From Acidobacteriota bacterium (GTDB lineage Bacteria > Acidobacteriota > Vicinamibacteria > Vicinamibacterales > UBA2999): a DNA stretch of 64,000 nt. Both the position numbers and the translations under genes were made by a program. Under the pieces are notes generated by a model, which was given only the letters and a program-made list of their open reading frames with translations, had not been told where the DNA came from and ran no database searches. The stretch is from the NCBI GenBank assembly GCA_030650395.1, contig JAUSDY010000121.1, positions 1 to 64,000 of the forward strand, read 5' to 3'. Shown here piece after piece: positions 267 through 16,055 of the stretch (its first letter is position 1; each line of letters opens with the position of its first letter).

Positions 267-385
267 TTATGTAGTTTGGGTCGCGGTCCTGAGCGCCCGC
301 TCCTGCGCCGCGGTGCGCAGCATGCTGACGGCGGTGTAGATAAACACCACCACCGCGTGCTGGTAGTGTTTCTCAGCTACGGGAT
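267..385 (-). pseudogene. C-terminal remnant of a second TauE/SafE permease
   Basis: Read on the minus strand, about 35 codons ending at TAA (267-269) translate to ...VVVFIYTAVSMLRTAAQERALRTA. This closely matches the last residues of the intact permease at 2724-3662 (VVVVIYTAIGILRTASKERAMK). Upstream of about 385 the similarity stops, and the remnant overlaps the 3' end of the WG-repeat gene in another frame. It is a fragment left by duplication or rearrangement and is not expressed as a protein. The junction lies near the WG gene stop codon. Confidence 0.6.
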
Positions 386-1966
386 TGTGATGTTCGCCCC
401 GGAGTCTGAAACCGCCCTGAAGATAGTAATGCAGGCGCCCGACGAATCAGCCACTAGCCAGGGATGAGTGGAGTATGTCTCGCCCTGTGAGCGCGTTTGG
501 CCGGGAGGGACGTCGAACCAGCGTTTTCGCTGGCCGTCGAAGTCCAGCCAATAGACCGTGATTGAGTCCGTTCTCTGATTGACGATACTGAAAGCAGTTT
601 TCCGTTCAGATCCGATTGATCTGGCACTTCCTTCGGTACTACAGGACAAATCACGATTGGCCGATTGGCCACGCGTCTGTGTAACTTGTGCCGCAGCCTG
701 CGCGTCGAGTTCGACTTGACGGGCTTCGGTCGCAATACGCTCCCTCTCTTGTTTGATCGTGGTCCCTGGAAATGGATCGACCACGAAGGTTCCGGATGCC
801 GTTATGTACGCTTCTTTGCCAACCACGTCAACGAGCGCTAACCCGTTGTGGAACCAGCCGGCAGAGTCGAACTGCGGGCTGATCACCATCTTGGCCGTTG
901 AGTCGATGAAGCCCCAGCCATCTTCAGTCTTTACGGCTGCGAGCCCTTGCCTGAAAGAGCCAACGGACTGGAACTTCCCCAATTCGACTACCACTCGCCC
1001 TTCCAAGTCGATTAGGCCAATTCCAGTGCCTTCGTTTTTGACGACCGCATGACCCTCATTGAACATCAAGCCAGCCTGGTACTGAGGGTTGATGACGAAT
1101 CGACCCTGCTTGTTGATGTAGCCTGTGCGTCCGCCGACGACAACCGGCGCCAGGCCGTCCGCGAACCCACTTGCGCTCTCGAATTGCGGGTTGATGACCC
1201 ATTCTCCAGCGACGTCGATGTACCCCCACTTGCCGCCTGTAGCCACTGGCGCAAGCCCCTCGCTGAATCCGGATGCCGATTCGAATTTTCCGGCCATCAC
1301 CACTTTCCCGGACTTATTCAAGAAGGCAATACTCCCCTCCGAGGTCTTGACCGGTGCCAGGTTTCCGGTGAAGGCCCCAACCCAGAGAAAATCCGGGCTG
1401 TGAATGTACTTGCCGTCCTCGTCAATGAAGCCGAATCGGTCATTCTCGGTCTCCGAGAACCATGCGCCGCAGCACAGCTTCACGGCCGCGCGGCCATTCC
1501 GAAACGGCTGGGCGGCGTCGAACTGTGGTGTGATCGCTATGGCGCCCGTGGGGTTAATGTAGCCCCATTTGGTCCCCACCCGGACGGCGGACAATCGTTC
1601 GGAAAACTCGTCAACCTCATCGAATTGCGGCGTGATCACTGTCGTGCCAGAGCGCTCCATGAAACCGTACTTGTCGCCGACCTTGATGGGGTATAAACCG
1701 CCGTTGTCTGATTCGTACCGGCCCGGCGGCTGATTCATCCACCAGTACCCTGCCGCTGTGATGGCGACAACCAGGGCGACAAGCGCCATTCGCGCGGGAA
1801 AGGAACGTCGCGGATGAGCGTTTCCGGCTCTGCTTAATACCGGCGTTGCGGCTGGCGCGCCGGGCGAATTGGGAATGGCGCTAGCGGTTTCGTCCCCAAG
1901 AGCGAACCCGCAGCTGCCGCAGAACTTGGCGCCTGCGACGTTTTCGAATCCGCATCTGCATTGCAT
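377..1966 (-). CDS. Membrane-anchored WG-repeat protein with N-terminal zinc knuckle and C-terminal VHL-beta-like domain
   Basis: 529 aa. Residues 3-20 form a zinc knuckle with Cys at 3, 5, 17 and 20 (CxC-x11-CxxC). A Pro/Ser/Ala linker and one membrane helix (about 59-76, ending GYWW) follow. About nine WG (KWG) repeats then run to about residue 400 (units like KWGYIN...ITPQFD), predicting a beta-propeller-like outer domain with a conserved LCCG insertion. A short Ala/Gln-rich helix leads to residues about 447-520, which resemble the VHL beta domain (WLDFDG, VPPGQT, THPWLV). The start is supported by AAGGA 9 nt upstream. Paralogues at 5769 and 8548 share the first part but lack the VHL-like end. 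The role is unknown; a surface-sensing or binding function is inference. Confidence 0.8.
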   Translation of the reverse strand: MQCRCGFENVAGAKFCGSCGFALGDETASAIPNSPGAPAATPVLSRAGNAHPRRSFPARMALVALVVAITAAGYWWMNQPPGRYESDNGGLYPIKVGDKYGFMERSGTTVITPQFDEVDEFSERLSAVRVGTKWGYINPTGAIAITPQFDAAQPFRNGRAAVKLCCGAWFSETENDRFGFIDEDGKYIHSPDFLWVGAFTGNLAPVKTSEGSIAFLNKSGKVVMAGKFESASGFSEGLAPVATGGKWGYIDVAGEWVINPQFESASGFADGLAPVVVGGRTGYINKQGRFVINPQYQAGLMFNEGHAVVKNEGTGIGLIDLEGRVVVELGKFQSVGSFRQGLAAVKTEDGWGFIDSTAKMVISPQFDSAGWFHNGLALVDVVGKEAYITASGTFVVDPFPGTTIKQERERIATEARQVELDAQAAAQVTQTRGQSANRDLSCSTEGSARSIGSERKTAFSIVNQRTDSITVYWLDFDGQRKRWFDVPPGQTRSQGETYSTHPWLVADSSGACITIFRAVSDSGANITIP

Positions 1967-2055
1967 AGGTCGTCATCCTTCTCACGAAGTCGCCTTGCCG
2001 CGCGCGCCAACGACATTCCTGGCCATCAATTCCAGCCGTTTAGCAGCCCCGATCA

Positions 2056-2637
2056 TCACTGCAAGAGAATCGCAGGTCGCTCCGTTCGGTCGAGAGTGAC
2101 CTGCCATTGGTAGGATCCGATAAGGCCGCCGAACCACGGAAGGGACGTGGCATTCTGCTCCACGACTGTGAGATCGGTAGTCACTTTTATTATTCCGTTG
2201 AGCTTTAGAGCCAGTGCCCGTAGTTGCTGCCTACCTTCGGCCGGAATCTCAGGTCCGAGGATGCGAATGAGTCCGCCTGGGTCGACGCGGAATTCCACCA
2301 AGTCGAGGAAGGCTTTCTTTCCAGAATGAATCGGGCCTGCCTCCCGGTACTGGACCCGAAATCGACCGCGACCGATGTAGTCGGCCTTTGCGAAGCCCGA
2401 TGTCCTGCGGAGGTCAGCTTCCCCCTTCTTCATCTCGGCTTCGTCCGCAGGTGATAGCGGCCCGCGCCCCTCAATCTGGGCGAGAGCCAAGCCAAACGCG
2501 ACGGTCCCATCGTAGGTGAACTGAAAGTTCTTATTTTGGTCGACATTGAGTGTCGCGGTGAATTCCTCGGGGGCCCAGCATGACGTTAAGCAAAAACAGC
2601 AGAGGACTACTGCAATGATCCTCGGGGTATCCCTCAT
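2056..2637 (-). CDS. Predicted lipoprotein of unknown function
   Basis: 193 aa from the ATG at 2637, chosen over an upstream in-frame start because GGAGGA lies 7 nt before it and it places a clean lipoprotein signal peptide at the N-terminus: hydrophobic core then LTSC with Cys20. The mature part is soluble (about 170 aa) with no domain that I recognise. It lies between the WG protein and the TauE-like permease on the same strand, with short gaps, and may share their transcript. An outer or inner membrane-anchored periplasmic location is expected from the lipobox. Confidence 0.75.
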   Translation of the reverse strand: MRDTPRIIAVVLCCFCLTSCWAPEEFTATLNVDQNKNFQFTYDGTVAFGLALAQIEGRGPLSPADEAEMKKGEADLRRTSGFAKADYIGRGRFRVQYREAGPIHSGKKAFLDLVEFRVDPGGLIRILGPEIPAEGRQQLRALALKLNGIIKVTTDLTVVEQNATSLPWFGGLIGSYQWQVTLDRTERPAILLQ

Positions 2638-2723
2638 CTGACTTCCTCCGCACAGAATGGTCGGGAAGGCCTCCATCGTCGCAACGGGGGAGGCTGTCTG
2701 CGCATCTCAGGACGCTATTGATA

Positions 2724-3662
2724 TCAACCGCGTTGCTCATTCAGGCTGCCGCCTTTCATGGCGCGTTCTTTCGAGGCGGTGCGCAATATTCCGATGGCCG
2801 TGTAAATCACCACGACGACGACACCCCAGCGGACGTAATTGATCGGCAGCTTCTCGACCAGAGGGGCCGCGATCAGTACCGCGACGGGTCCACCGATCAG
2901 CAGACCGATGGCGGCCCGCACGTCGTACTTCTCTTTGCGAATGAACTGAAGACTGCCCGTCGGCATCAGAAACGCGCAGGCGCCCATCATGATCGGAAAC
3001 GCCGCCTTGGGGTTCATGCCGATCATGCTGATCAGGATGAGGCACGGCGCGTAGTAGCCGATCCCGAGCATCATCAGCGCGCCGAGAATCGCCGAGATGA
3101 CGATCGCCACGCCCAGCAGCGCGCCGCTGACGCCAAGCGCAACACCCGGTTCCGTGGGCGGGGCGAGCCTGCCGAGATACGGCGCCATTTCCGGTATCGA
3201 TCGCAGCATCAACATTGCAGCGGCGAGCAGTGCTATCCCCATTCCGATCTGAATCTTGCGCCGGGGAAGCCCGGACACGACGCCGGCGCCGAGCCACGCG
3301 CCGACGACGGCCGCGCCGATGATCGAGATCAGCGTGACAAACTCGACCTCGACGATCGTGATGAAAATTATCGCCTGGATGATGGTCGGCAGGGTGTGGC
3401 CGACGTTGAGCGTGCCGGGAATCTTCTCATCGCGCACTACATTCCAGGCCCGGTACATGGCAGTGGTCGTGGCGTAGGAGCCGATTCCGAGGGTGTCGAA
3501 AAAATTCGTGACGAAGCCGATGGCGATCTGCAGAGGCGATGGGGTGAGCGGGGACTTGTCCTTGCGATCCGCCCGCTGCCGCATCAGGGTCGTAAACCAG
3601 AACGTAAAGTAGAACAGGCCGATGATGATCAGCCCGGCCAGCAGCAGCGTCTTGGGATCCAT
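2724..3662 (-). CDS. TauE/SafE-family membrane permease
   Basis: 312 aa, very hydrophobic, with about eight predicted helices in two halves. The N-terminal part contains a GIGSYATTTA segment like the glycine-rich motif of TauE/SafE (DUF81) transporters, and the second half repeats the fold (GALMMLGIGYYAP). Family members export sulfite, sulfoacetate or other small organosulfur anions, or are of unknown substrate. Nothing nearby identifies the substrate. A C-terminal fragment of a paralogue lies at 267-385, so the gene has been duplicated at least once here. Start ATG at 3662; no strong Shine-Dalgarno sequence. Confidence 0.8.
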   Translation of the reverse strand: MDPKTLLLAGLIIIGLFYFTFWFTTLMRQRADRKDKSPLTPSPLQIAIGFVTNFFDTLGIGSYATTTAMYRAWNVVRDEKIPGTLNVGHTLPTIIQAIIFITIVEVEFVTLISIIGAAVVGAWLGAGVVSGLPRRKIQIGMGIALLAAAMLMLRSIPEMAPYLGRLAPPTEPGVALGVSGALLGVAIVISAILGALMMLGIGYYAPCLILISMIGMNPKAAFPIMMGACAFLMPTGSLQFIRKEKYDVRAAIGLLIGGPVAVLIAAPLVEKLPINYVRWGVVVVVIYTAIGILRTASKERAMKGGSLNEQRG

Positions 3663-3819
3663 TGCCGGGAATTCTACTGTAGGGCGTCCTAATTACTATG
3701 GTCTAGGCCGAGACACACGATTTCACGAGTGCGTAACCACCGGCCTGACGTTCTCAGCGGCAGCTCGTCAGTAATTGTATTTCTTCGGGATCTGGTATAC
3801 CGTGCGCCCACGCGCGAAC

Positions 3820-3840
3820 GGCCCAGGTTCGGTCTGGGCC
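3820..3840 (+). promoter_or_regulatory. Hairpin in the 248-bp leader region before the Yip1-like gene
   Basis: GGCCCAG and CTGGGCC form a perfect 7-bp stem with a 7-nt loop, 70 bp upstream of the ATG at 3911. The rest of the 3663-3910 spacer between the divergent permease and zinc-ribbon genes shows only a weak promoter candidate (TATACC near 3796-3801). Function is not established. Confidence 0.3.
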
Positions 3841-3910
3841 GACGCTTGTACCTTCGCTTCAAGATCATCCAAGTCCAGGTTCGCGGCAAATTCAGCGCGG
3901 GGAGGGTTTT

Positions 3911-4630
3911 ATGTACTGCCAATCATGCGGGACTCAGGTCGCCGATGCGATGACGGTGTGTGGTGGCTGTGGATACGTGCCCCCGGTCGCGGGCTCGGCC
4001 GCCGCGAGAGATCTAGGTGACCAAGTCAAGACCTCGTCACGCGATGCGCTCGATGTGTTGAAGCAGCTGGCTACGAACCCTGTGGGTGGCCTATCCGCAG
4101 CGTACGCGGGCCTTGGCTCCGATCGCGCGTTGAGCGCGGGCATCGCCTTGTGCGTCGTATTCGCGCTGGCGTCGAGTGCTGGTCTGGTCATGGGCGCGAA
4201 TCAGTTGCAGCGGGTTGTCTCCGGATGGCTTGGCCAACTCAGCGGCTTGATCGATGGCCCGCAAGGGTTTACAGCCTTCATCAAGACCGCGTTTCAACTG
4301 CTCGTTGTCCCTGCGGCCATCGCAGCGTCCAGCCTTGCCCTACGCAAGATGGCCGGCGCTCGCCCTCCGATCTCCGCGGACATATTTACGGCGGGGGCCG
4401 CATTGGCGCCCTTGGGGGCCGCGACCCTGCTCGCGGGACTTATCGGAGTGGGGAACATCGAGATCGTCGTCCTCCTGTTCTTTTTCGCGCTCGCCTACCT
4501 AGTGCTGATGCTGTACGCGGGTTTCACGACGATCGGCGCCATGACCGAGCGTGCGGGGGCTCCAGCGGTTCCAGCGACAATTCTGCTCTCCGCCTGGTTG
4601 TGCAAGGTCGTGTTCGCGGCGTTGGTCTAA
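3911..4630 (+). CDS. Zinc-ribbon Yip1-like integral membrane protein
   Basis: 239 aa. Residues 3-21 are a small zinc ribbon (CxxC ... CGGCG) of the classic CxxC/CxxC type, unlike the CxC form of its neighbours. A hydrophilic linker is followed by about five membrane helices (roughly 71-95, 120-143, 155-178, 180-207 and 217-239), an arrangement seen in Yip1-domain proteins. GGGAGG precedes the ATG. It heads a run of co-directional genes to 10867 with short gaps, so co-transcription is likely. A truncated copy of its last 80 residues lies at 12243-12477. The biochemical role is unknown. Confidence 0.7.
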   Translation: MYCQSCGTQVADAMTVCGGCGYVPPVAGSAAARDLGDQVKTSSRDALDVLKQLATNPVGGLSAAYAGLGSDRALSAGIALCVVFALASSAGLVMGANQLQRVVSGWLGQLSGLIDGPQGFTAFIKTAFQLLVVPAAIAASSLALRKMAGARPPISADIFTAGAALAPLGAATLLAGLIGVGNIEIVVLLFFFALAYLVLMLYAGFTTIGAMTERAGAPAVPATILLSAWLCKVVFAALV

Positions 4631-4666
4631 CTGACCTTCGGCCTGGCGACTGAGAGGCGGCGACCC

Positions 4667-5695
4667 ATGCACTGCACGTGCGGATTCAAGAATAATCCTG
4701 GTGCGAAGTTCTGCGGCCAATGCGGGCTTCCGCTTGCCGGGGCTGTCGCTGCCGCGCCCATCATCGCGCCAACGCCCGCAACATCCTCTCGGCGCGCGAG
4801 TCTGCGTTTGGTCATTGCATTACTGGCTCTAGGAGCTGTCGGTGCCGGTGCCTGGGGCGTGTATTGGTACGTCACCAGGCCTGACCCCGCTCATGACGGT
4901 AAGGTGGCAGCCGAGGCATTTTGCGGTTGTGCGAACGCTGACAGCGCGAAACAGGCTGCGGCGCACTCGGAGTATCTCTCCGGCTTCGATGGCCGGAAGT
5001 TCACCCGCAGAGACACGGCAACGGAGGCGCTGACGGCTATTCTCGCCCCGGCCACTCTCGAAGCCGATCAATGTCGTTTGCAAGCGAACGCTAGGCACGA
5101 AGAATTCCGCAAGCGGTATATCAACAATCGCGAGGCATCCGACACGTTCGAGAATTCCGTGGCCGCTCATCGCAGCACTTGCGTGGATGTGCGGCGCGAC
5201 GAGCTCGCACAACTGCAGGCTCAAGTGGCTGCGAAGTACCGGGCCATTCCCGATCTCGCCGCCGATGTCCTGACGGCCCTTGCCGGCGCTTCACAGGGAA
5301 GGTATCGGCTGGCGACCGACCAGGATCGCAAGTGGGACCAGTATTCCTTTGACAACTTCGTCAAGCCGAATCGCGCGAAGGTCGAACACTATCCATTTAT
5401 TGCGAGGGGCGACTTCGACGGCGACAACCTTCCCGACCTCGCCGCGGAGGTGCTCAGCCTTGATGACACCCGCACGCGAATGGCGCTGGTATGGGGCAAT
5501 GGCACGGTGTCGTTCTACGACGGCCAAATGTGCTCGGCCATCGCCTCTGTCCCTCCACAGGAGTGGAAGAGTCATTGGGAGAGCGCGCCGCTGACGTTGA
5601 CGACCGACGCGATCTTGGTCGCTTGCTTCGAGAGTAGCGCCTGGTTGCTGTATTGGGATGGACAATCGTTTCGGCAGTATCGAATCAGCGATTGA
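4667..5695 (+). CDS. Zinc-knuckle, single-helix membrane protein with FG-GAP-like segment
   Basis: 342 aa. The N-terminus has the same CxC-x11-CxxC knuckle (Cys 3, 5, 17, 20) as the WG-repeat paralogues, then an Ala/Pro linker and a membrane helix around residues 47-66. The outer region is about 270 aa and Cys-rich. Near residue 246 it contains GDFDGDNLPDL, a calcium-binding-like loop as in FG-GAP/VCBS repeats, but only one copy is visible. It shares the anchor module with its neighbours but not the propeller. Function not recognised. Confidence 0.65.
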   Translation: MHCTCGFKNNPGAKFCGQCGLPLAGAVAAAPIIAPTPATSSRRASLRLVIALLALGAVGAGAWGVYWYVTRPDPAHDGKVAAEAFCGCANADSAKQAAAHSEYLSGFDGRKFTRRDTATEALTAILAPATLEADQCRLQANARHEEFRKRYINNREASDTFENSVAAHRSTCVDVRRDELAQLQAQVAAKYRAIPDLAADVLTALAGASQGRYRLATDQDRKWDQYSFDNFVKPNRAKVEHYPFIARGDFDGDNLPDLAAEVLSLDDTRTRMALVWGNGTVSFYDGQMCSAIASVPPQEWKSHWESAPLTLTTDAILVACFESSAWLLYWDGQSFRQYRISD

Positions 5696-5768
5696 ACCCA
5701 ACCCAGATCGTCTTTCAGTCGATTTTTACGCTCGTGAGGGCGACGTCAGACAGTGAGAGGAGTGGCTG

Positions 5769-7385
5769 ATGCAGTGCAAATGTGGATTCTCCAACAGTGC
5801 CGGCGCCAAGTTTTGTGGTAGCTGTGGGTTACCTCTTGCACAGCCAGCGCCCAGCGATAACCCCGTTCTGAGTGCGGATGCGCCCGCCCTGCCGGTTCCG
5901 CCCCCTGCGGTCAGGCCGCCGCGACGGCCGCTGTCTCCCGCGCGAATTGCTACTCTCGTCGCAGCTGCGGCGATTGTCGCAGCTGGATATTGGTGGTTTA
6001 ACCGGCCGCCAGGACAATACACGCCCGACAACAGCGGCTTGTTCGCTATCAAGGTCGATGACAAGTACGGTTTCATGAACAAGTCCGGCAACACTGTGAT
6101 TGCTCCTCAGTTCGACGAAGTCGGTGGGTTCGCCGAGGGGCTCTCGGCTGTGCGCGTGGGAACCAAATGGGGCTACGTCAACACCAAGGGTGCGATCATG
6201 ATCACGCCTCAATTTGATGCTGCTCGGCCATTTCGGTACGGGCGTGCTGCGGTGAAGCTGTGCTGCGGAAGCTGGTTCTCAAGCACTACAAACGACCGAT
6301 TCGGCTTCATCGACGAAGATGGCAAGTACATCCACAGCCCAGACTTTCTCTGGGTAGGCTATCTGGGATTTGGCGGCGACCTGGCGCCGGTTAAGACCGC
6401 CGAGGGAGCAATAGCATTTGTGAACCGTGCTGGAGAGGTAATGCTTTCAGGCAAGTTCAGTTCAGTGACTGATGGCGGATTCAGCGAAGGGGTCGCTCCT
6501 GTGGAATCCACGGGCAAATGGGGTTACGTCGACACTGCCGGCGAGTGGATCATCAACCCCCAGTTTGAAGGCGCTCAGGGCTTCTCGGGGGGCCTTGCGC
6601 CAGTGGTAGTCGGTGGGAAGACGGGTTATATCAATACGGCGGGTCGCTTCATTATCAATCCACAGTACTCTTGGGGCGGTGAATTTGTGGATGGTAGCGC
6701 CATCATCACACAGCCGGCCGGAATGGGATTGATCGATCGGGAAGGGCGCGCCGTCGTCGAAGTCGGCAAGTTCGAGGTTGTGGGCACTTTCCAGGATGGG
6801 CTGGCGCGCGTCAAGGCTGGAGATGGATGGGGCTTCATTGATTCGAGCGGAGCATTGGCGATCGGCGCTGAGTTCGACTCTGCCGACGAGTTTCAAAATG
6901 GCTTGGCGCGCGTCACGGCCCTTGGCAAGGAGGGCTACATCACGACCGCCGGTATCTTCGTCGTGAATCCGTTCCCGGGCGCCACCGTCAAGCAGGAAAA
7001 GGCGCGCCTGGCGGAGGAAGCGCGACAAGCTCAAGCCGATGCCGATGCGGCACGAGCCGCAACGGAAGCACGCGCCGTTGAAGAACGCACCCGCTTGATT
7101 GCCGAGGCGCCGCAGCAGGTCTTGGGCCAGTGGAGATGGTCGGATCAATCGACCACGCAGTATTTGCCGAATGGAACAGTTCAAGGCCTCTCTAGGGATG
7201 GAGGCACGTTTACAAATAGCTGGGTCATCAACGGGGAGGTCCTGACCGTGGTCCCGATCGATGTGAACGGTCGACCGGCTAATCGTGAGGAAATATCCTT
7301 TAGAATCGTGGAGCTCAATCAATCAAAGTTCACTGTGACTAACATTCGTACTAAGGAGGACTCTTCAGCTACGCGCGTTCCGTAG
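5769..7385 (+). CDS. Membrane-anchored WG-repeat protein with zinc knuckle and lipocalin-like C-terminus
   Basis: 538 aa. It has the knuckle (Cys 3, 5, 17, 20), a Pro-rich linker, a membrane helix ending GYWWFN, then about nine WG repeats (KYGFMN, KWGYVN, KTGYIN and similar, each followed by a PQF-type segment). An Ala/Glu/Arg-rich helix at about residues 405-440 joins the propeller to a C-terminal segment of about 90 aa beginning LGQWRWSD, which resembles a small beta-barrel of lipocalin type. It is a close paralogue of the 377-1966 protein up to the helix; the C-terminal domain is different. GAGAGGAG precedes the start. The ligand is unknown. Confidence 0.8.
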   Translation: MQCKCGFSNSAGAKFCGSCGLPLAQPAPSDNPVLSADAPALPVPPPAVRPPRRPLSPARIATLVAAAAIVAAGYWWFNRPPGQYTPDNSGLFAIKVDDKYGFMNKSGNTVIAPQFDEVGGFAEGLSAVRVGTKWGYVNTKGAIMITPQFDAARPFRYGRAAVKLCCGSWFSSTTNDRFGFIDEDGKYIHSPDFLWVGYLGFGGDLAPVKTAEGAIAFVNRAGEVMLSGKFSSVTDGGFSEGVAPVESTGKWGYVDTAGEWIINPQFEGAQGFSGGLAPVVVGGKTGYINTAGRFIINPQYSWGGEFVDGSAIITQPAGMGLIDREGRAVVEVGKFEVVGTFQDGLARVKAGDGWGFIDSSGALAIGAEFDSADEFQNGLARVTALGKEGYITTAGIFVVNPFPGATVKQEKARLAEEARQAQADADAARAATEARAVEERTRLIAEAPQQVLGQWRWSDQSTTQYLPNGTVQGLSRDGGTFTNSWVINGEVLTVVPIDVNGRPANREEISFRIVELNQSKFTVTNIRTKEDSSATRVP

Positions 7386-7442
7386 AGCGGCGCAGAAAGT
7401 GCGAAATGGTTGCGACAGTCTGATTCTGTGAAGGCTTGGACA

Positions 7443-8513
7443 ATGAGTTCATTCGTAACGCAGTCTCTTCGGAACCGTGCTCTAGTGACCTTTCTCCTCG
7501 CGGTCGCTAGCCTGCGGGTGGCCGGCGCTGACCGGCTGATTACCGGGCAAGTTCAAGGTTCGGCGAAGCCCCCGGCGCGGGCAGTTCCTCGGCTGGATTC
7601 GATCGACGAACAGATCAGTCGGAGTCGGGCGCGCATTCAGGAGCTATTCTCCGGCTCGCACTCGGCGCGTTGCGCATCAGAGCCCCCACGAGGGGAGTTC
7701 GAGAAAACCTCTGCCTACGATGTGCGGGTCGAACGCTGGAAACAGGATTGCCTCGAACGCAAGAAGCGCGCAGAGCGGGAACAACAGTCGGAGGTTCTTA
7801 GTCTGCCGCTGCTCGGAGCGGCTGTGCAATACGACCCGGACGCTGAGGAGTTTGTGATGGAGCTAACCCAAGCGGACGGAGGCGTTTACGTTTCTGCGCC
7901 CGCAAAAACGCGCGTCACTGTGTCGCCAGAGCCGGCAGATTGGGTTGTGTGTCGCGCCCGCGTGCCGATTGCAGATGCCCCAGGCATTAAGAGCAGCCTG
8001 CGGCTGCTTTTGAGATTCCGATTCGCTTCGCCATTGCCTCAGCTAGTGGGCGATTCGTGGTCTGCGCAAGAGTTGGTGGTTCTCGGGGTCCAACAGCGGG
8101 GCGGCGCCGATAGCGAAGTTGTCATCGAGGCGCCGTTGTCGACATGCACCAAAAATCGGTCAGAAATGGTTGCACCGGCTGAACAGAAGGCTCGTCAAGA
8201 GAGTGCGGGAAACGCCGGAAATGTGTCAGAAGTATGCCGTGGCGTTAAAGTGACACCACCAAGAAAAATTAAGGACGTTCGGCCGGAATACCCTCAGACC
8301 GCACAGTCAGCACGCATTCAAGGCACTGTGTCTGTCGAGGCCACGGTTGATACATCCGGGAACGTCACTCATGCGAGAGTGGTGCGCTCGATTCCACTAC
8401 TCGACCAGGCGGCCCTGGACGCCGTCAGGCAGTGGTTGTTTACTCCCACATACTGCGGCAGTGTTGCTGTGCCGGTCACAATGACGGTGACCGTAGGCTT
8501 CTCGCTCCAATAG
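7443..8513 (+). CDS. Secreted protein with TonB C-terminal domain
   Basis: 356 aa from the ATG at 7443, preferred to a TTG at 7410 because GAAGG lies 9 nt upstream and the ATG gives a normal signal peptide (LVTFLLAVASLRVAGA). The middle is charged and of unknown fold. The last 85 residues match the TonB_C fold: PEYPQTAQSARIQGTVSVEA, then TSGNVTHARVV and WLFTPTYCG. Stand-alone TonB_C proteins are common in Acidobacteriota and act in envelope energy coupling or periplasmic binding. No ExbB/ExbD genes are nearby. It sits between two zinc-knuckle genes in the same orientation. Confidence 0.75.
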   Translation: MSSFVTQSLRNRALVTFLLAVASLRVAGADRLITGQVQGSAKPPARAVPRLDSIDEQISRSRARIQELFSGSHSARCASEPPRGEFEKTSAYDVRVERWKQDCLERKKRAEREQQSEVLSLPLLGAAVQYDPDAEEFVMELTQADGGVYVSAPAKTRVTVSPEPADWVVCRARVPIADAPGIKSSLRLLLRFRFASPLPQLVGDSWSAQELVVLGVQQRGGADSEVVIEAPLSTCTKNRSEMVAPAEQKARQESAGNAGNVSEVCRGVKVTPPRKIKDVRPEYPQTAQSARIQGTVSVEATVDTSGNVTHARVVRSIPLLDQAALDAVRQWLFTPTYCGSVAVPVTMTVTVGFSLQ

Positions 8514-8547
8514 CCGTCAGATCCGGCTCATCTGGGAATCAAACCCC

Positions 8548-9387
8548 ATGCGATGCAAATGTGAATTCACGAACGTCGAAGGCGCGAGATTCTGTGGCAG
8601 GTGCGGTCGTGACCTGAGCGAACGGGGCAAGCCGGGGAGCGAATCATCGCGAGCCGCGACGATTGCGCCTGCACAATCACCACGAGACTCCTCACGCGGA
8701 CGAACGGCGATCCTTGCAGCCGCAATCGTCGCAGCGGCGGCCGGATACTGGTGGTTCAATCGTCAGCCGGACTCATACAAGCCCGATAACGGTGGTCTGT
8801 ACGCGGTCAACGTCGACGGCAAGCACGGCTTTATGGACGTGACTGGAAAGACGGTCATCACACCTCAGTTTGACGACGTTTACGATTTTTCGGAAGGGTT
8901 GGCGGCGGTACGGATTGGTACCAAATTTGGATTCATCGACACCGAAGGTGCTGTGGTGGTTGCACCGCAGTTTGACGACGTCAGAAACTTTCGCTTCGGC
9001 CGCTCAGCGGTCAAGTTGTGCTGCGGCCCATGGGACCAGCAGGATTCGAGGAACCGGTTTGGCTTTATTGACCGAGACGGCAAGCTTATTCACAATCCGG
9101 ATTTCCGCTGGGTCGCCGCCGTCCGGATCGGAGACCGGGCAGGCTACATCGACAAAAGCGGTCGGATCGTCATCAACCCACAATTTGACTATGCCGAATC
9201 CTTCGTGGAAGGGTTGGCCGTTGTTAGGGTCGGAGATGAACGATCCGGCAAGTACGGCTTCATCGATAAGAGCGGAAAGATAGTCGTTGCGCCGCAATTC
9301 GACTATGCCGATGCATTTTCAGACGGGCTTGCGCGCGTGAGGATTGGCGACGCCGCTACAGGTAAGTGGGGTTATATCTGGCGCTAG
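8548..9387 (+). CDS. Short WG-repeat membrane protein with zinc knuckle (C-terminally truncated paralogue)
   Basis: 279 aa. The N-terminal knuckle is kept (CKCEF, then FCGRCG), followed by a linker, a helix ending GYWWFN, and about six WG repeats with the same LCCG insertion in the third. The protein stops at KWGYIWR in the middle of a repeat unit, so it lacks the remaining repeats and the extra C-terminal domain of its two longer paralogues. The stop codon is clean and the reading frame is open, so it may be functional as a short form, or it may be the product of a 3' deletion. Confidence 0.75.
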   Translation: MRCKCEFTNVEGARFCGRCGRDLSERGKPGSESSRAATIAPAQSPRDSSRGRTAILAAAIVAAAAGYWWFNRQPDSYKPDNGGLYAVNVDGKHGFMDVTGKTVITPQFDDVYDFSEGLAAVRIGTKFGFIDTEGAVVVAPQFDDVRNFRFGRSAVKLCCGPWDQQDSRNRFGFIDRDGKLIHNPDFRWVAAVRIGDRAGYIDKSGRIVINPQFDYAESFVEGLAVVRVGDERSGKYGFIDKSGKIVVAPQFDYADAFSDGLARVRIGDAATGKWGYIWR

Positions 9388-9409
9388 GCGCCAGCGGTGA
9401 GGCGCAAAA

Positions 9410-10867
9410 ATGGGATGCACTTGCGGGTTTGTGAATGCTTCCGGCGCGCGGTTCTGCGGTAGCTGCGGGTTAGCACTCAGCGAAGCGTCTTCTAGGCCAT
9501 CAGTACCGCAACGATGTCCAGAGGAGGGACCTCAGGCCTCGCCGGCACAGCGTGGCAGCAGTGGGCGGCCTCGATCCACAGTGGCAATCTTTGTCATATT
9601 TGCTGTCGTCGCAGGTTTGTGGTGGCTCCTGCGATCTGACGGCGGCTCCTCGAGGGTCGATCGCGCGGTAGAGCGGTACTATTGGGTCGATGGCGCCGTC
9701 GTGGTGGAGCCTGGATCGAAAACAGCTGAAGAACGGTTCACCCTGAGACGTGCGCAGGATGCGGAGCCGCTGGGCACTGGCTGCTACACTCAGCATTTCC
9801 AGCTCAGGGACGGTTCGGTCATCTACTCGCTAATCGACTGTGACTTCAAGAGTCCTGCTGCTGCTGTTTACCATTGGCGTCCAGGTTCGCCCCCGAGAGA
9901 GCTTCACAAGGTCACACCGAAGGCGGAAGGCGAAATCTTGCCGACTGTCACACTCGAGAAACTCGGATCCTCGAACGCCGTCTTGATAAGTGAAGACGGA
10001 AAGGAACCTATTCTCTTCGACGCAACGACAGAGAGAGCTAGCACCTTAACCTTGGCTGGTCCGGAGCTGGTAAAGGCAGCAAATCCTAACGCCACCTATG
10101 AGGGCATAACCTGGGACTGGTTCAAGGATTTTGCCTTCGACTCTGACGAGGACGGGAGCGAGATCATCTATACGCGGTGCTCTGGCGATCGCGATGTTCC
10201 CCAGTGTGCAACGTTCAGGCAGTCGGTCCGGGCGCAGGGTACGCCCGATCTCCTGCGCGGTCCCGCAGGACAGGCGATTGTTCCGTTGCTACGTCGGGGA
10301 TCGTATCTGTTTAGCAGCGTCGGCGGCCCGGAGGTCTCTTCGATTTATCGACATGATCTTCAGAGTCTCTCTTGGCGTCCGGTTGCGTCGAACGTCGTCC
10401 ACCTGGCGTTCTCTCCGGACGGTAATAGGCTCGCCTTCTCAGATCTCCATCCGAATGTGTGGGTTCTGACATACAACGAAGCCAATGGTGCATTCGAGCA
10501 ACCTCGCAGAATAACGAACTTCCCCGCGCAGCAGTCGGACCACAACCTCGATCTGGCGTGGCTCAATAACTCGGCGCTCGTTGTGCGCGTCACAATCGAT
10601 AGCAGTTTCAGCGGTGGATGGAGGGCGGACCTTCAGACGGGGAGTCTCGACCTGCTGTGGCAGCCGAAGGACGCAACTCAGGATGTATTTTTTGAATACG
10701 TTCGGAAACAGAAAGGCACGACGACGTATAACGTCAAGAGCCCGCGCACGACCTTGGTTTCAGAGCAGGCGGCCAATCTGATCGCTAAAGCGTCGCTAAT
10801 CACAATCGGAGTGGTCGCCATCGCCGTTGGTTGGATCGGTCGCACTCGGCGGAGGGTGCTCCGGTGA
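9410..10867 (+). CDS. Zinc-knuckle membrane protein with WD40/PD40-like propeller
   Basis: 485 aa. It has the CxC-x11-CxxC knuckle (Cys 3, 5, 17, 20), a low-complexity linker and a membrane helix at about 58-73. The outer region of about 380 aa contains TolB/PD40-type blades, for example LAFSPDGNRLAFSD. A second hydrophobic helix (LITIGVVAIAVGWIG) and an Arg-rich end follow near the C-terminus. It therefore combines the anchor module of the locus with another propeller type. It is the last gene of the plus-strand run; 225 bp without a recognisable feature follow it. Function unknown. Confidence 0.65.
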   Translation: MGCTCGFVNASGARFCGSCGLALSEASSRPSVPQRCPEEGPQASPAQRGSSGRPRSTVAIFVIFAVVAGLWWLLRSDGGSSRVDRAVERYYWVDGAVVVEPGSKTAEERFTLRRAQDAEPLGTGCYTQHFQLRDGSVIYSLIDCDFKSPAAAVYHWRPGSPPRELHKVTPKAEGEILPTVTLEKLGSSNAVLISEDGKEPILFDATTERASTLTLAGPELVKAANPNATYEGITWDWFKDFAFDSDEDGSEIIYTRCSGDRDVPQCATFRQSVRAQGTPDLLRGPAGQAIVPLLRRGSYLFSSVGGPEVSSIYRHDLQSLSWRPVASNVVHLAFSPDGNRLAFSDLHPNVWVLTYNEANGAFEQPRRITNFPAQQSDHNLDLAWLNNSALVVRVTIDSSFSGGWRADLQTGSLDLLWQPKDATQDVFFEYVRKQKGTTTYNVKSPRTTLVSEQAANLIAKASLITIGVVAIAVGWIGRTRRRVLR

Positions 10868-11092
10868 GACATCGAGTGGCCACTGTCCAACCGAGGCAGA
10901 CCGCACAACGGCTTTCTATTTCAACGGTTCGGTCGTGTGAATCGTCTTCACGAGTCTTGCCCTTGGTTCTGCGGCTTGGCCCAGACTGGCTAGCCTCCCC
11001 CATACGCGTCCGCCTCGTGCTTGTCCTGAAAATATGTCGGTGGTTACTTGCATTTTGCAAATGCCATTGAGCCAAATACGAGAACGCTGCTG

Positions 11093-11503
11093 CTACCTTG
11101 GCGAGCGGAGGTAGGTTAGCGATGCTGCTCGACCCTGAGCGTCAGGTTCGTAGGTAATGGTCATTTGATCGGCTACGAATTTCACCAAACTGCGGGACTT
11201 GTAACCAACGCGCTCTTTGACGCCAGACTCGCTGACTTCCTCGAAGATCGCACCTTCCGTTGCGAAAATCTGGTATGTGCCGGTCTCTTCAATGTTGTCC
11301 TCTGTGAAGTACCACGTTCCATTCGCGCGGTACTCGGCGCGGCACGGAGCAGACCATGTGGTTTGACGGCGACCGCCGTTCTCGCGTGCAAAGCAATCCC
11401 ACTTCCCAACAATTCTTTGCGCGAGACCTTCTCGGCCGCTGCATGAGCTCCCGGCGAGGGTGAGACCAACGAACACTGCTGCTGCGACGGTGCGCTTCAT
11501 CAT
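11093..11503 (-). CDS. Small predicted lipoprotein, lipocalin-like
   Basis: 136 aa. The signal peptide ends in a lipobox-like GSSC (Cys 21). The mature part starts IVGKWDCFAR and continues with YRANGTWYF and GTYQI, a beta-rich pattern seen in small lipocalin-like proteins of this type. It lies alone on the minus strand, facing the zinc-knuckle run. Two adjacent ATG codons are possible starts (11503 or 11500), and the Shine-Dalgarno sequence is weak. Substrate unknown. Confidence 0.6.
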   Translation of the reverse strand: MMKRTVAAAVFVGLTLAGSSCSGREGLAQRIVGKWDCFARENGGRRQTTWSAPCRAEYRANGTWYFTEDNIEETGTYQIFATEGAIFEEVSESGVKERVGYKSRSLVKFVADQMTITYEPDAQGRAASLTYLRSPR

Positions 11504-12025
11504 TATCTGCTCGCGGGAATGGTTGGGATTGAGCCCAACTAATAGTAGAACCGACGTGCCTATCTCCGTCTGGCTTGCACGGCTCGCAGGATAACAGAAG
11601 ACAGGTGGGCGTTAGGGGCTGAACAGATCCTTGGTCCGCCGTCGCTGCACGGCTAGCCAAAACCGGCATGGCCAAGTTAGGCCGCGCTGCTGACACCCTG
11701 CGAGTCTTTAAGGCATATCAGCGGTGGTCAGAGCAGCGGCTACTCAATTCCCGCAGATAATCCCCTGAGGCTGGAACGCTACTGGCCGCACGCTCGCAAC
11801 CAAGGACTCAATGCACTGAGCGCGAGTCGGTTTTGGATCGTGAGGGGTTTCCCTTCGGCCCTCGCGCGGGTGTCCGACGTTTGCCTTTCGAGGGTGGAGT
11901 GACCCAAGTCAGTCTCACATCAGCTTCTAACTGGTCGCCATGCCAGACTGCGACGGCGCCTTCGCCAATTGGATACCTGGTGGCGATCGGCTTCGAAGGA
12001 TGCATGGTTTCATGTGCGCGCGATT
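11504..12025. other. 522-bp stretch with no recognisable gene
   Basis: Only short open frames without family resemblance and without ribosome binding sites occur here (the longest plus-strand one, starting at 11833, runs into the decayed region). I see no tRNA, terminator or repeat family used elsewhere in the window. It probably is decayed island DNA. Confidence 0.4.
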
Positions 12026-12078
12026 CTACCCGACGAACTTATAGCCGGAGCCGTGAATCGTCAGGATGTGCTCCGGGG
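12026..12078 (-). repeat. 53-bp direct repeat, copy A (duplicate of response regulator 3' end)
   Basis: This stretch matches 13533-13585 with one mismatch and in the same orientation. It encodes the last 17 residues (ending HGSGYKFVG) and the stop codon of the OmpR-type regulator at 13533-14213. Immediately upstream on the minus strand it is joined to an IS3 orfA fragment instead of to the regulator. The two copies bracket about 1.45 kb of gene fragments. Confidence 0.85.
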
Positions 12079-12188
12079 GTGACGGCGCCGACCGTCTTGC
12101 CCTCGTCCAAGACCAGCCGGACGGCCCCTTCCTTGAACTCCTCAGAGAACTGTCGCCGGACTCGCCGGCCGCCATGACTTGATCGCAT
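12078..12188 (-). pseudogene. IS3-family OrfA N-terminal fragment
   Basis: The minus-strand translation contains RRQFSEEFKEGAVRLVLDEG then KTVGAV, the typical beginning of IS3-group OrfA (HTH_Tnp_1) proteins. It breaks off after GAV, exactly where the 53-bp regulator duplicate begins. The helix-turn-helix second half and OrfB are absent, so it is a dead scrap of a transposon. Confidence 0.65.
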
Positions 12189-12242
12189 TCTGGACATCGT
12201 ATCCGCCTCTCGGAAGATGTCCACCGAATCGGATCAATGCCA

Positions 12243-12477
12243 AGCAGCATTGGCTCCGCTCAGCGCTGCGACCATGCTTGCCGGACTAATCGGAGTAGGA
12301 AACATCGAGATCGTCGTTCTGATGTTCTTCTTTGCCCTCGCCTACTTGGTGCTCATGCTCTATGCCGGACTCACCTCGATCGGCGCCATGACAGAGCGCG
12401 CGGGAGCACCCGCTGTACCCGCAGCGATTCTCTTGTCTGCGTGGCTGTGCAAGGTCGTGTTCGCCGCGCTCGTTTGA
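12243..12477 (+). pseudogene. C-terminal fragment of the Yip1-like membrane protein
   Basis: From AALAPLSAATMLAGLIG to AWLCKVVFAALV the translation is nearly identical to the last 80 residues of the protein at 3911-4630. The zinc ribbon and first two helices are missing. An in-frame ATG exists at 12217, but its first residues are unrelated and no ribosome binding site is visible, so I regard it as a duplicated remnant. Confidence 0.75.
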
Positions 12478-12489
12478 TGCGAACACGGA

Positions 12490-12827
12490 TTGGGCAGTGA
12501 AGTGAGAACCGATCGTTGTGTTCTAATCGTGGTCGCGGCGGTGGCCGGCAGCTACTGGTGGTTCAGTCTGCGCCTTCAGGACTATTCGACAGATAACGCC
12601 GGCTTATACGCAACAAGAGTCGGCAACAAATATGGCTTTGCGAACAGATCAGGCGCAGTGGTCATTCCGCCACAGTTTGATTCTCTCTTTGGAGGATTCT
12701 CGGAAAGGTGGCGGCGGTTCGAATTGGCCCCAAGATAGGCTACATTGATACAAGCGGTCGTGTGATGATCACTCCGCAATTCGACGACGCAGAGCCTTTT
12801 CGTTACGGACGAGTCGCGGTTACCTAA
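12490..12827 (+). pseudogene. Frameshifted WG-repeat gene fragment
   Basis: The reading frame begins in the membrane helix of the family (GSYWWF) without the zinc knuckle. It runs through one WG unit (KYGFANRSG ... PQFDSL), shifts frame near 12710, and continues as AAVRIGPKIGYIDTSG and MITPQFDDAEPFRYGR to TAA at 12825-12827. It has lost both the 5' anchor and the 3' repeats of the intact paralogues at 377, 5769 and 8548. Confidence 0.7.
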
Positions 12828-13034
12828 CGCCCAGTGGCTCGTTAGTGAATAGTCCGTCTCGTCCAGAACCGTCCCCGTCTCCCGTGACTTCAGCCGAACA
12901 ACCGACCGACACCGAACCAATGCGAATAGAGAGGTACCAACTGGTATCGCGCGGACTAGAGTTTGGCGACGAGTCCTTGACGATGTGCTCCATCCAGGGG
13001 GCTGAAGGTGCGTGTCGGGTCGAGGCCTTTGTCC

Positions 13035-13359
13035 AAACCTCCCACCAATATGGACGACCGCAAGTCCTTCTCGAAACGCCTCTCGAATCCACGTCACGCT
13101 ACCATTGAAAAACGATGCTCGTGGTCAAACTGGGGTGTGATGACGTACTTCCCAGCGTTGTCCATGTATCCGACCTTGTCGCCGCTCGTAACCGGCGCCA
13201 GTCCATCCTCGAAAAGACGACGGCGAATCGAACTGGGGGGTGATACGAGCTTTCCCGTTTGAGGGCCTTGTCCTGGTACCTGGTCTTGCTGCTGGCCACA
13301 TGCCAACCTAGCCCGACACTGACAAACGCGTAGACTAGAACGACTAGTGACTTCGACAT
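13035..13359 (-). pseudogene. Degenerate WG-repeat gene with signal peptide
   Basis: An ATG at 13359 (minus) begins a hydrophobic leader (MSKSLVVLVYAFVSVGLGW). WG-type pieces follow in shifting frames: ITPQFDSPSSF, then EDGLAPVTSGDKVGYMDNAG, then REGLAVVHIGGRFG. At least two frameshifts separate them. It is a decayed secreted WG protein that differs from the zinc-knuckle type by having a signal peptide. The 12828-13034 stretch next to it shows no recognisable gene. Confidence 0.55.
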
Positions 13360-13532: not shown

Positions 13533-13585
13533 CTACCCGACAAACTTATAGCCGGAGCCGTGAATCGTCAGGATGTGCTCCGGGG
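13533..13585 (-). repeat. 53-bp direct repeat, copy B (3' end of the response regulator gene)
   Basis: This is the native copy of the repeat also found at 12026-12078. It is the end of the intact regulator reading frame, including its stop codon. Confidence 0.85.
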
Positions 13586-14213
13586 CGTGGGGCGCGCGCT
13601 CGATCTTCTGCCGCAGCTTGGCCACGAAATTGTCGATGGTCCGGGTGGTGGGGAACTCTTCGTAGCCCCACACCTCGTTGAGGATCTGCTCGCGCGTCAC
13701 CACCTGGCCGGTGTGCTGGACGAAGTAGCGCAGCAGATCGAACTCGCGGGCGGTGAATTCGATCCGGCCCTTGCCGCGGCGCGCCTGGTGCAGCTTGAAA
13801 TCGATCTCGATGTCGCCGATCCGCATCACGTCGGCCTGTGGCTGCTGCACGCCGCTGCGGCGCAGCACGGCGCGCACCCGCGCCAGCAGCTCCGTGATCG
13901 AGAACGGCTTGGTGACGTAGTCGTCCGCGCCTAACTCGAGGCCGAGCACCTTGTCGGTTTCCGCCGAGCGCGCCGTGAGCATCACGATCGGCGTGGCGAT
14001 GGCGCGTGCCCGCAGGTCTCGGCAGACGTCGAAGCCATTCTTCTTCGGCAGCATGACGTCGAGAATCACCAGGTCGGGCGTGAACGACGCCGCCTTCAAC
14101 AAGCCCTCGTCGCCGTCGGCCGCGGTTTCGACGTCGTAGCCTTCGAGCTCGAGATTGTCGCGGAGCCCGAGCCGCATCTGCGGCTCGTCTTCGATCACCA
14201 GGATTCGCTTCAT
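13533..14213 (-). CDS. OmpR/PhoB-family response regulator
   Basis: 226 aa from the ATG at 14213 (MKRILVIEDEP), which is the normal start of a receiver domain; the upstream in-frame extension is rejected. The receiver has the acidic pair (EDE), the phospho-Asp in VILDVMLP, Thr in MLTARS and Lys in VTKPF. The C-terminal winged helix (about residues 130-226) ends in the usual ILTIHGSGYKFVG. It is the partner of the histidine kinase encoded 60 nt upstream. The target genes are not evident. Confidence 0.9.
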   Translation of the reverse strand: MKRILVIEDEPQMRLGLRDNLELEGYDVETAADGDEGLLKAASFTPDLVILDVMLPKKNGFDVCRDLRARAIATPIVMLTARSAETDKVLGLELGADDYVTKPFSITELLARVRAVLRRSGVQQPQADVMRIGDIEIDFKLHQARRGKGRIEFTAREFDLLRYFVQHTGQVVTREQILNEVWGYEEFPTTRTIDNFVAKLRQKIERAPHAPEHILTIHGSGYKFVG

Positions 14214-14273
14214 TTGGTCGACTCGCCTAGTGGAGCGTCTGAGCAAAAACCTGTCGTCAGGGCCATTTGCGCT

Positions 14274-16055
14274 CTACGAAGTATGCCGGGCCGTTCCTAC
14301 GGAACGGCCCGCAGGGTCATCGAGCACATTACCAATGAACGTCGGTTCGAACGCGTTGTCGTGCGGGATCGGGAAGTGCAGCGTGAACGTGCTGCCCTGG
14401 TTGGGCTCGCTCGTGACGCCGGCGAAGCCGCCGTGCCCGCGCATGGTGTGTTCCACGATCGCCAGGCCGAGGCCGGTGCCCTGCGGCCCGCCGCCAAGCT
14501 CGCGCTGCACGCGGTAAAACTTGCGGAAGATCCGGCTCTGCTCGCGCCGCGCGATCCCGATGCCGTGGTCTGTCACCGCGACCACGATGTGGCCGTCCGC
14601 CCGGCGCGCCTCGACCGTGATCTCGCGATTGTCGCCCGAGTACTTCATGGCGTTGGCCAGCAGGTTTTCGATCGCCTGTTCGGCGGCGCCTTCATCGGCC
14701 AGCACGTGCGGCAAGCCGGGCTCGATCAACGTGGCGACGGTGAAATGGCCCTGCTCGAACTGCGTGCTCATCCGCGACAGCACCTTGGTCACCGACTCGG
14801 CGAGGTCGGCGGGCTCCATGCGGTATGGGCGCAGGCCGGCCTCCATGCGGGAGAAGTCGAGGATGTTCTCGATCAACCGCGTCAGCTTTTTCGACTCGCC
14901 GTTGATGATGCGGTAGTACTCCTGCGCGCGGTCCGGGGTGCGGACGCGGCCGAGCTCGAGCGTTTCGGCGAACAGTTGAATCAGCGCCAGCGGGGTCTTG
15001 AGGTCGTGCGACACCGACGCGACGAAATTCGACTTCAGCTCCGCGACGCGCACTTCGCGCGCGGCGGCGCCCGCCACGAGGAAGACGCCCAGGCCCATCG
15101 CCACCGCCAGCACGATCATCAACGCCATCTGCGGGCGCGTGCTCGCGCTCACGATTTCCGGAATCGTCTGCGGGCCGTAACCGGTCCGCAAGCCCCAGAT
15201 CTCGCGCTGCTGCTCGTACGGCGCCGCGAACTCCAGCAGCTCCTTGTCGAAGAAGATGATCGCAAAGCTCCGCTCGTCCACCGGCACATCGTCTGAGCGC
15301 AGCTCGTCCGATTCGAAAATGCGCGAGCCGTCTTCCGCCAGCACCGCCACTTCGAGCGGCGGAAAGCCGACCGGCTGCTGCACGTTGGCGAGCCGGTCGC
15401 GCAGCAGCGCGGGCACGAACTGCGCGCGCAGCTTTTCGGCGTCCACCGCCAGCGCCACGACGCTCGTCATCCGCTCGCGCGCGAACGTCTCGAAGCGCAG
15501 CTGCGCCTGCACGTAGTACTTCCGGCCGCCAATCTCTTCGGTGAAGGCGACGATCGCCATCCGCATCTTCACCAGCTCCTGCAAGCGGGGCAGCAGCTTG
15601 GCGCCGAGCACTCTGTCTTCCTGGAACCGCTCGAGCGACTCGGCCGGCAGCGATTCGGTGGTGTGGTCGTACTTGATCCACTGATGGGCCAGCGGTCCGC
15701 GCTCGGTCCACACGAAGAACGCATCGACGAACGGGCTTTCTTTCAGGCCGTCACGGAAGATCGGGTTGATCCAGGCGAGGTCGAGCGGCTCCGTCCTCGC
15801 CTGCGGCACGCGCAGCAGCACGCTGATGTGCGGCCGCTTCAGGTAATCCTCGAGCGAACGGGTCAGCGACTCGGCCGTATCGCTGCTCAATTGCCGCAAG
15901 ACGACCGCGGATGTTTTCTCGATGTCGTTGAGCGATCGGAACTGGAAGTAGAACAGCACGGCCATCGGGATGGCGACGACCACCGCCAGGCCCGCCGCCA
16001 GCCGCACGCCGCGGTCGGACACGAACTGGCGAAATGGGTTGCGTGTGCTGCTCAT
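14274..16055 (-). CDS. Membrane sensor histidine kinase
   Basis: 593 aa. A first membrane helix is at about 19-37, an extracytoplasmic sensor region extends to about 305, and a second helix lies at about 310-330. The HisKA domain follows, with phospho-acceptor His350 in SHDLKTPL. The ATPase domain shows the N box (ENLLANAMKYS), G1 (DHGIGI) and G2 (GTGLGLAI). It is co-oriented with the response regulator downstream and the TPR gene upstream, forming a TPR-kinase-regulator set. The sensor domain is unlike any that I can name, so the signal is unknown. Confidence 0.9.
   Translation of the reverse strand: MSSTRNPFRQFVSDRGVRLAAGLAVVVAIPMAVLFYFQFRSLNDIEKTSAVVLRQLSSDTAESLTRSLEDYLKRPHISVLLRVPQARTEPLDLAWINPIFRDGLKESPFVDAFFVWTERGPLAHQWIKYDHTTESLPAESLERFQEDRVLGAKLLPRLQELVKMRMAIVAFTEEIGGRKYYVQAQLRFETFARERMTSVVALAVDAEKLRAQFVPALLRDRLANVQQPVGFPPLEVAVLAEDGSRIFESDELRSDDVPVDERSFAIIFFDKELLEFAAPYEQQREIWGLRTGYGPQTIPEIVSASTRPQMALMIVLAVAMGLGVFLVAGAAAREVRVAELKSNFVASVSHDLKTPLALIQLFAETLELGRVRTPDRAQEYYRIINGESKKLTRLIENILDFSRMEAGLRPYRMEPADLAESVTKVLSRMSTQFEQGHFTVATLIEPGLPHVLADEGAAEQAIENLLANAMKYSGDNREITVEARRADGHIVVAVTDHGIGIARREQSRIFRKFYRVQRELGGGPQGTGLGLAIVEHTMRGHGGFAGVTSEPNQGSTFTLHFPIPHDNAFEPTFIGNVLDDPAGRSVGTARHTS

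Follow-up and report, generated by a model that had tools for sequence, protein, structure and literature searches.

A gene cluster in an Acidobacteriota genome joining one putative zinc-ribbon head and membrane helix to WG repeats and other C-terminal domains

Organization of the gene cluster

The stretch described here, referred to below as the window, comprises the first 64,000 nucleotides of contig JAUSDY010000121.1 (assembly GCA_030650395.1) from an Acidobacteriota bacterium, and its left part contains a cluster of genes for predicted membrane proteins that share a short cysteine-rich N-terminal head, a putative zinc ribbon (ZnR). Five intact open reading frames (ORFs), named here by their first coordinate, begin with this ribbon: 377-1966 on the minus strand, and 4667-5695, 5769-7385, 8548-9387 and 9410-10867 on the plus strand. 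As judged by Pfam, head alignment, hydropathy scan, motif and, for 5769, a predicted model, the 377 protein (529 aa) is a ZnR-helix-WG protein ending in a VHL beta domain; the 5769 protein (538 aa) has a WG region, predicted to be a propeller, then an extended helix and, at the C-terminus, a small beta domain; the 8548 protein (279 aa) is a shortened ZnR-helix-WG protein with 4 WG units over the cut-off and 5 by motif; the 4667 protein (342 aa) carries an FG-GAP-like region; and the 9410 protein (485 aa) carries a region with a weak PD40 match and, toward its C-terminal end, a further hydrophobic segment (residues 458-476) with a basic tail after it. With alike heads standing before such unlike C-termini, the proposal in a preliminary description of this DNA, that one anchor has been joined to different C-terminal domains, is borne out.

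Relatives of the cluster were found in a genome of the same genus (G005, on a contig judged to be JAIEMQ010000051) and in a third genome (L113, JAIMBE010000172); these searches sample the phylum, and an absence in them is no proof. A further ribbon gene, 3911-4630 on the plus strand, encodes a 239 aa multipass protein recognized from its ORF, hydropathy scan and relatives in G005 and L113, with an N-terminal CxxC-x10-CxxC ribbon and five hydrophobic segments. It had been described as a CxxC-type Yip1-like protein; the CxxC ribbon is present, but Yip1 is matched neither in Pfam (E up to 8) by the window, G005 and L113 proteins nor in NCBIfam (E up to 1) by those of the window and L113, and we assign it to no family.

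Together with a TonB_C-domain gene, the multipass gene and the four plus-strand ORFs form a run of six same-strand genes (3911-10867) separated by gaps of 22-73 nt. The TonB_C gene (7410-8513, plus strand, start uncertain; PF03544, E 4e-20) sits among the ribbon genes, has no ribbon itself, and its product looks exported by eye, yet shows no segment at the hydropathy-scan threshold.

The shared N-terminal head

The five products begin with M-x-C-x-C-x-F-x-N-x-x-G-A-[KR]-F-C-G-x-C-G, after which come a linker of low complexity and a single hydrophobic stretch, and 14 columns, including all four cysteines, are invariant across the aligned N-termini. The head, linker and helix are thus as first described for five genes, except that the cysteine spacing is CxC-x10-CxxC as counted here, and not CxC-x11-CxxC. 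The two cysteine pairs of this short head are present in all five window genes and in the G005 and L113 genes. As a single query, the 4667 protein matches the 5769, 9410 and 8548 heads with E 5e-9 to 6e-7, and a profile of the five copies matches the same-genus gene with E 1.3e-12, so the likeness is not due to chance. In its own genome the profile finds strong matches only in these five copies; the next are L006 (E 0.010, with an internal stop) and L007 (E 0.017), which by its motifs is a ribbon-kinase.

Similar N-terminal cysteine patterns are known from the Zn_Ribbon_1 (PF13240) and DZR (PF12773) heads of kinase-like and cyclase-like proteins. Those heads precede enzymes (kinase or cyclase by motif), whereas the window heads precede a helix and presumably an outer domain.

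WG repeats and the other C-terminal domains

WG repeats (PF14903) were reported in three genes, and the 377, 5769 and 8548 proteins indeed share the repeat of the WG_beta_rep family, far over its cut-off of 25.6 bits (241, 220.2 and 171.9 bits; E 6e-73, 2e-66 and 2e-51, respectively). All 21 WG matches in the genome itself (E up to 0.001) fall inside the cluster. By title and abstract start, we found no paper on ribbon-WG proteins; in the excerpt of PMC8078820 consulted, PF14903 occurs in one table row.

A structure model of the 5769 protein was built on a four-sequence alignment; taken in blocks of ten residues, its predicted local distance difference test (pLDDT) values are 73-94 over residues 91-400. 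Residues 89-403 align with a chain in the yeast 43S pre-initiation complex (6zce), which we take to be eIF3b, the entry's title naming the complex only, with Z 15.7 and a root-mean-square deviation (rmsd) of 3.8 over 306 residues. The model also matches eIF2A (Z 15.4, rmsd 3.9, 305 residues), a designed propeller (Z 12.7) and BamB (Z 9.2-9.8). The top structural matches (Foldseek, VIA) are translation factors, WD40-like propellers and BamB, and we take them as evidence of fold, not of function; among the rows listed, the whole-model TM-scores from Foldseek are low (0.14-0.34 by query length), and a sequence search of solved structures with a profile of the WG alignment gave nothing convincing (best E 0.11). 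The WG region of the 5769 protein is predicted to adopt a beta-propeller fold, which supplies a predicted fold for the WG repeat. BamB-type envelope propellers, which have no ribbon, would have this fold in common with it. BamB is a lipoprotein (title of 3prw), unlike the ribbon-WG proteins, and the likeness is one of fold, sequence kinship between them not being shown.

Within the WG region, a KLCCG motif with two adjacent cysteines (residues 163-167 of the 5769 product) is conserved in the three window WG proteins and in that of G005, and is missing in L113; it might form a disulfide or bind metal within the propeller. The C-terminal regions of the two long WG proteins differ. That of 377 is a VHL beta domain (PF01847; 22.3 bits for the whole protein and 26.0 for the C-terminus alone, cut-off 21) and matches VHL chains in the PDB with E of about 0.003, whereas that of 5769 is small, matches nothing in Pfam and is modeled as strands with middling confidence. 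The VHL beta domain, at 377-700 on the minus strand, gives a bacterial membrane protein a likeness to the beta domain of a human tumor suppressor.

The propellers ascribed earlier to the other two ribbon genes are not established. The PD40 match of the 9410 protein is under the Pfam cut-off (14.4 bits versus 20.9), its single-sequence model has a mean pLDDT of 42.5, and relatives were found in none of the other 296 of the 297 genomes searched. In the 4667 protein FG-GAP (PF01839) is matched by one 15-residue stretch at 14.4 bits, versus a cut-off of 22.1, and the G005 orthologue scores 12.2.

The locus in related genomes

The G005 contig carries a TauE-like gene, a multipass-ribbon gene, an FG-GAP-like gene and a ribbon-WG gene with order and orientation matching those at window positions 2724-7385, and this shared gene order indicates that the core locus is inherited. 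The description of the cluster as an island, in the sense of foreign genes, is not borne out, and a foreign origin of the core locus was rejected on the grounds that order and neighbors are common to G005. A plasmid DNA search with window positions 5769-6500 returned no match. The G+C content dips to 0.573-0.618 over 0-14 kb, against 0.623-0.676 beyond, which leaves room for recent additions to the cluster. L113 has a multipass-ribbon gene followed directly by a ribbon-WG gene, in which the contig ends, with a transposase-like gene upstream (by reading), and the genome has one head-profile match. The head-helix module precedes a WG protein in G005 and L113 too; confinement to the window copies, which was to have counted against the earlier proposal, is thus not seen.

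The G005 counterpart of the multipass protein is 63% identical to it, and the gene was found in 2/43 genomes of the family (counting its own). Multipass-ribbon and ribbon-WG genes occur together in all three genomes in which a ribbon-WG gene was found. They are immediate neighbors in L113, and in both the window and G005 the FG-GAP-like gene separates them; in a decayed second copy in the window (12217-12830) multipass and WG remnants are again directly adjacent. Near a multipass relative in G280, a large protein (L181, 1-3592, minus strand) by eye shows Asp-box-like repeats and might also be a propeller.

Membrane topology

In six of the seven ribbon-helix proteins of the window, G005 and L113, the net charge of the 15 residues before the helix is +3 to +4 and that after it is -1 to +1; the seventh, 8548, has no helix at the hydropathy-scan threshold. 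Positive charge before the helix favors an orientation with the N-terminus inside and the C-terminus outside. A second line of evidence comes from WG proteins outside the genus, for which 28 loci were collected, one per genome, being the best matches fetched from 63 genomes with matches besides G000 and G005. None of the 28 shows a ribbon, and in 26 a signal-like start was judged present by reading; of the other two, L055 has no such start and L070 is truncated where its locus ends. The WG domain therefore appears to be usually exported, with a ribbon-helix head replacing the signal in the window locus, where the WG proteins have a ribbon and membrane helix in place of the signal-like start.

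From this sequence evidence the N-in/C-out orientation is likely, in agreement with the earlier placement of the cysteine knuckle in the cytoplasm and the propeller outside. The opposite arrangement, with the C-terminus inside and the WG propellers acting as cytoplasmic scaffolds, would suit the translation initiation factors that are the best structural matches, and propellers are common in the cytoplasm; given the positive charge before the helix and the signal-like starts of most fetched WG relatives, we regard it as very unlikely.

Presence and absence of the head on orthologous proteins

The most informative fact about the head is that it is present on one FG-GAP-like protein and absent from its orthologue. 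The FG-GAP-like gene is found in 2/162 genomes of the order (counting its own), and the window and G005 proteins are 44% identical (133/304 alignment columns) from window residue 40 onward. In G005 the ATG lies 7 nt past the stop codon of the multipass gene, so no ribbon is possible ahead of it; a TTG lying 8 codons further upstream could be the start instead and adds no ribbon. Counted from the ATG, the first 26 residues of the G005 protein are signal-peptide-like, ending in VAGGC, and align to the helix of the window protein. VAGGC fits a lipobox pattern.

As the window helix aligns to the signal-like segment of G005, with ribbon and linker lying ahead of it, the head seems to have been acquired or lost in one piece, ahead of a hydrophobic segment that was already there. 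Taken over the whole cluster, gain of the ribbon would be the simpler view because the other fetched WG proteins have none, and the ribbon seems an exchangeable part. With orthologues that differ in carrying a predicted cytoplasmic zinc-ribbon head, the role of such heads, which are widespread on membrane proteins and unexplained, becomes directly testable.

Ribbon heads elsewhere in the phylum

Matches to the head profile (E up to 1e-4) are present in 79/396 genomes of the phylum. We fetched 88 of the 111 matches outside G000 and G005 (111 being a hand count) and sorted them using hydropathy and simple sequence patterns; in L089 the ribbon chosen is 204 nt away from the match. Kinase-like proteins account for 26, cyclase-like proteins for 4 and a GRGQGRGY-type motif for 10; 16 have at least two hydrophobic segments, 11 have one helix at 25-110 with at least 100 residues after it, 5 have another one-helix layout, and 16 have no helix. 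One candidate for the same module, G046/L041, was rejected, as it looks like a double-ribbon cyclase.

A close parallel is L075, in which a ribbon, a proline-rich linker and one helix precede a normally exported domain, as in the window proteins; this domain is the pseudopilin-like T2SSG, where the window WG proteins have a propeller. L147 has a ribbon-linker-helix before a pseudopilin-like domain and is alike by eye, with T2SSG matched for L075 only. The ribbon-WG combination was found in three genomes only. Similar heads and the general layout are thus widespread; the kind is known, and the combination of ribbon and WG appears to be new.

These census figures also bear on the idea of the ribbon as a sensor of redox state or metal, in which zinc binding or cysteine oxidation inside the cell would alter the state of the outer domain. 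Four conserved cysteines, and similar heads on kinase-like (26/88) and cyclase-like (4/88) matches as classed by sequence patterns, are in keeping with it, but a single helix and a low-complexity linker should, on general reasoning, be a poor conduit for conformational change, and the Pfam scan found no enzymatic output domain in the ribbon proteins; we think this explanation improbable.

A functional precedent may lie in Myxococcus GltJ/AgmX, which has a cytoplasmic zinc ribbon, one helix and a TonB-like periplasmic end. Its ribbon is of another type than those of the window; GltJ/AgmX would be the best functional parallel to a single-pass protein that docks through its ribbon, and we treat it as a lead only. 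The excerpts of PMC3169522 and PMC8262864 consulted do not describe a GltJ ribbon. In the window, the TonB_C-domain product of 7410-8513 has a weak match to an AgmX/PglI C-terminal domain model (22.8 bits versus 40), and, besides TonB-type matches, an NCBIfam scan of the window proteins gave weak hits only.

Duplication and decay

Broken copies were noted earlier at 12490 and 13035, and such remnants are real. A remnant of a second multipass gene at 12217-12477 (plus strand) matches the final 87 residues of the 3911 protein with 83% identity, and directly after it, at 12490-12830 (plus strand), lies the remnant of a further WG gene with the ribbon gone and the frame broken, in which WG units are found at 12631-12705 and 12738-12821. 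A WG-like remnant on the minus strand (13094-13262) was seen by eye in frame translations, as a stretch near 13100-13260. The start of an orfA-like transposase gene, presumably of IS3 type, is also present downstream in the cluster. The decayed segment is flanked by a 53-nt direct repeat (12026-12078 and 13533-13585, about 1.5 kb apart), 98% identical and corresponding to the 3' end of a response-regulator gene, which may mark an old insertion. The cluster is rearranged and partly lost.

For the propellers of 377 and 5769, the ratio of nonsynonymous to synonymous substitution rates (dN/dS) is about 0.09, with dS saturated at 2.4, which speaks for constraint; the view of the cluster as a diversifying set, in the sense of selection, is not supported. 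A tree of the five WG proteins has no supported fork.

Decay of this kind invites another account, that the ribbon is a structural cap or a membrane-targeting head without partners, and that the genes are a tandem family in decay, maintained because the propellers are used now and then. The downstream remnants, the shortened 8548 gene and the orfA-like remnant all agree with it, as do the PD40 protein without a relative elsewhere in the genomes searched and the finding of the multipass gene in only two of its family's genomes. The four cysteines kept in five window copies, G005 and L113 and the low dN/dS of the 377/5769 propellers, albeit with saturated dS, run counter to it, and on balance we find this account possible, though doubtful.

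A possible role for the head

As the most likely mechanism we tentatively propose that the ribbon, of about 24 residues with a flexible linker, is a docking tag. The inherited locus would encode inner-membrane proteins with the ribbon in the cytoplasm and the WG propeller or another domain outside the membrane. The ribbons could bind each other, dock onto the ribbon carried by the multipass protein (3911-4630), or share a single hub in the cytoplasm, and several envelope-facing domains would thereby be gathered in one membrane complex around the ribbon-bearing multipass protein, where the propellers may bind envelope proteins or polysaccharide. When the tag is placed before an exported protein, the former signal peptide or lipoprotein signal would become the membrane anchor. 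The sensor or binding role suggested at the outset would be plausible for such proteins. In favor of docking are the shared heads on different C-termini, the six closely spaced genes on one strand, the gene order held in common with G005, the FG-GAP-like orthologue that lacks the head, the recurrent pairing of multipass-ribbon with ribbon-WG genes, the predicted propeller, the mostly signal-like starts of WG proteins outside the genus, and the ribbon-plus-helix heads on other proteins of the phylum, such as L075.

Several observations weigh against this proposal. All six window heads score under the Pfam cut-offs (PF13240, 13.9-20.4 bits versus 25; PF12773, 14.2-20.0 versus 27.3), the ribbon of the G005 multipass protein reaching the PF13240 cut-off with 25.0 bits, and in the 5769 model the ribbon has no usable structure (pLDDT 27-38 in blocks over residues 1-80). 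Among the outer domains, the 8548 gene does not have the length needed for the full modeled propeller, and the 9410 model is unusable. Multipass relatives in G280 (without a ribbon) and G419 have no WG neighbor seen in about 9 kb; the L113 and G005 contigs are drafts ending inside or just after the WG gene; the direction of gain or loss of the head is not readable from two FG-GAP-like sequences; and a promoter and terminator scan of the cluster was at chance level.

A broader version of docking may be entertained, which we hold to be unlikely: that ribbon and linker form a transferable re-topology cassette, which, placed before exported or lipoprotein genes, converts their signal to an anchor and connects a variety of envelope domains to a single zinc-ribbon hub in the cytoplasm, at whose core stands the multipass ribbon protein. 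The pseudopilin-like ribbon proteins of the phylum would then be built likewise.

Surroundings of the cluster

On its right the cluster is adjoined by a two-component system (13533-16055). On its left the window begins at base 1 of the contig, so the cluster is possibly cut on this side. At the contig edge (1-125), GTTCA recurs every ~22 nt (positions 6, 28, 50, 72, 94 and 117), and this short tandem array may be the cause of the assembly break.

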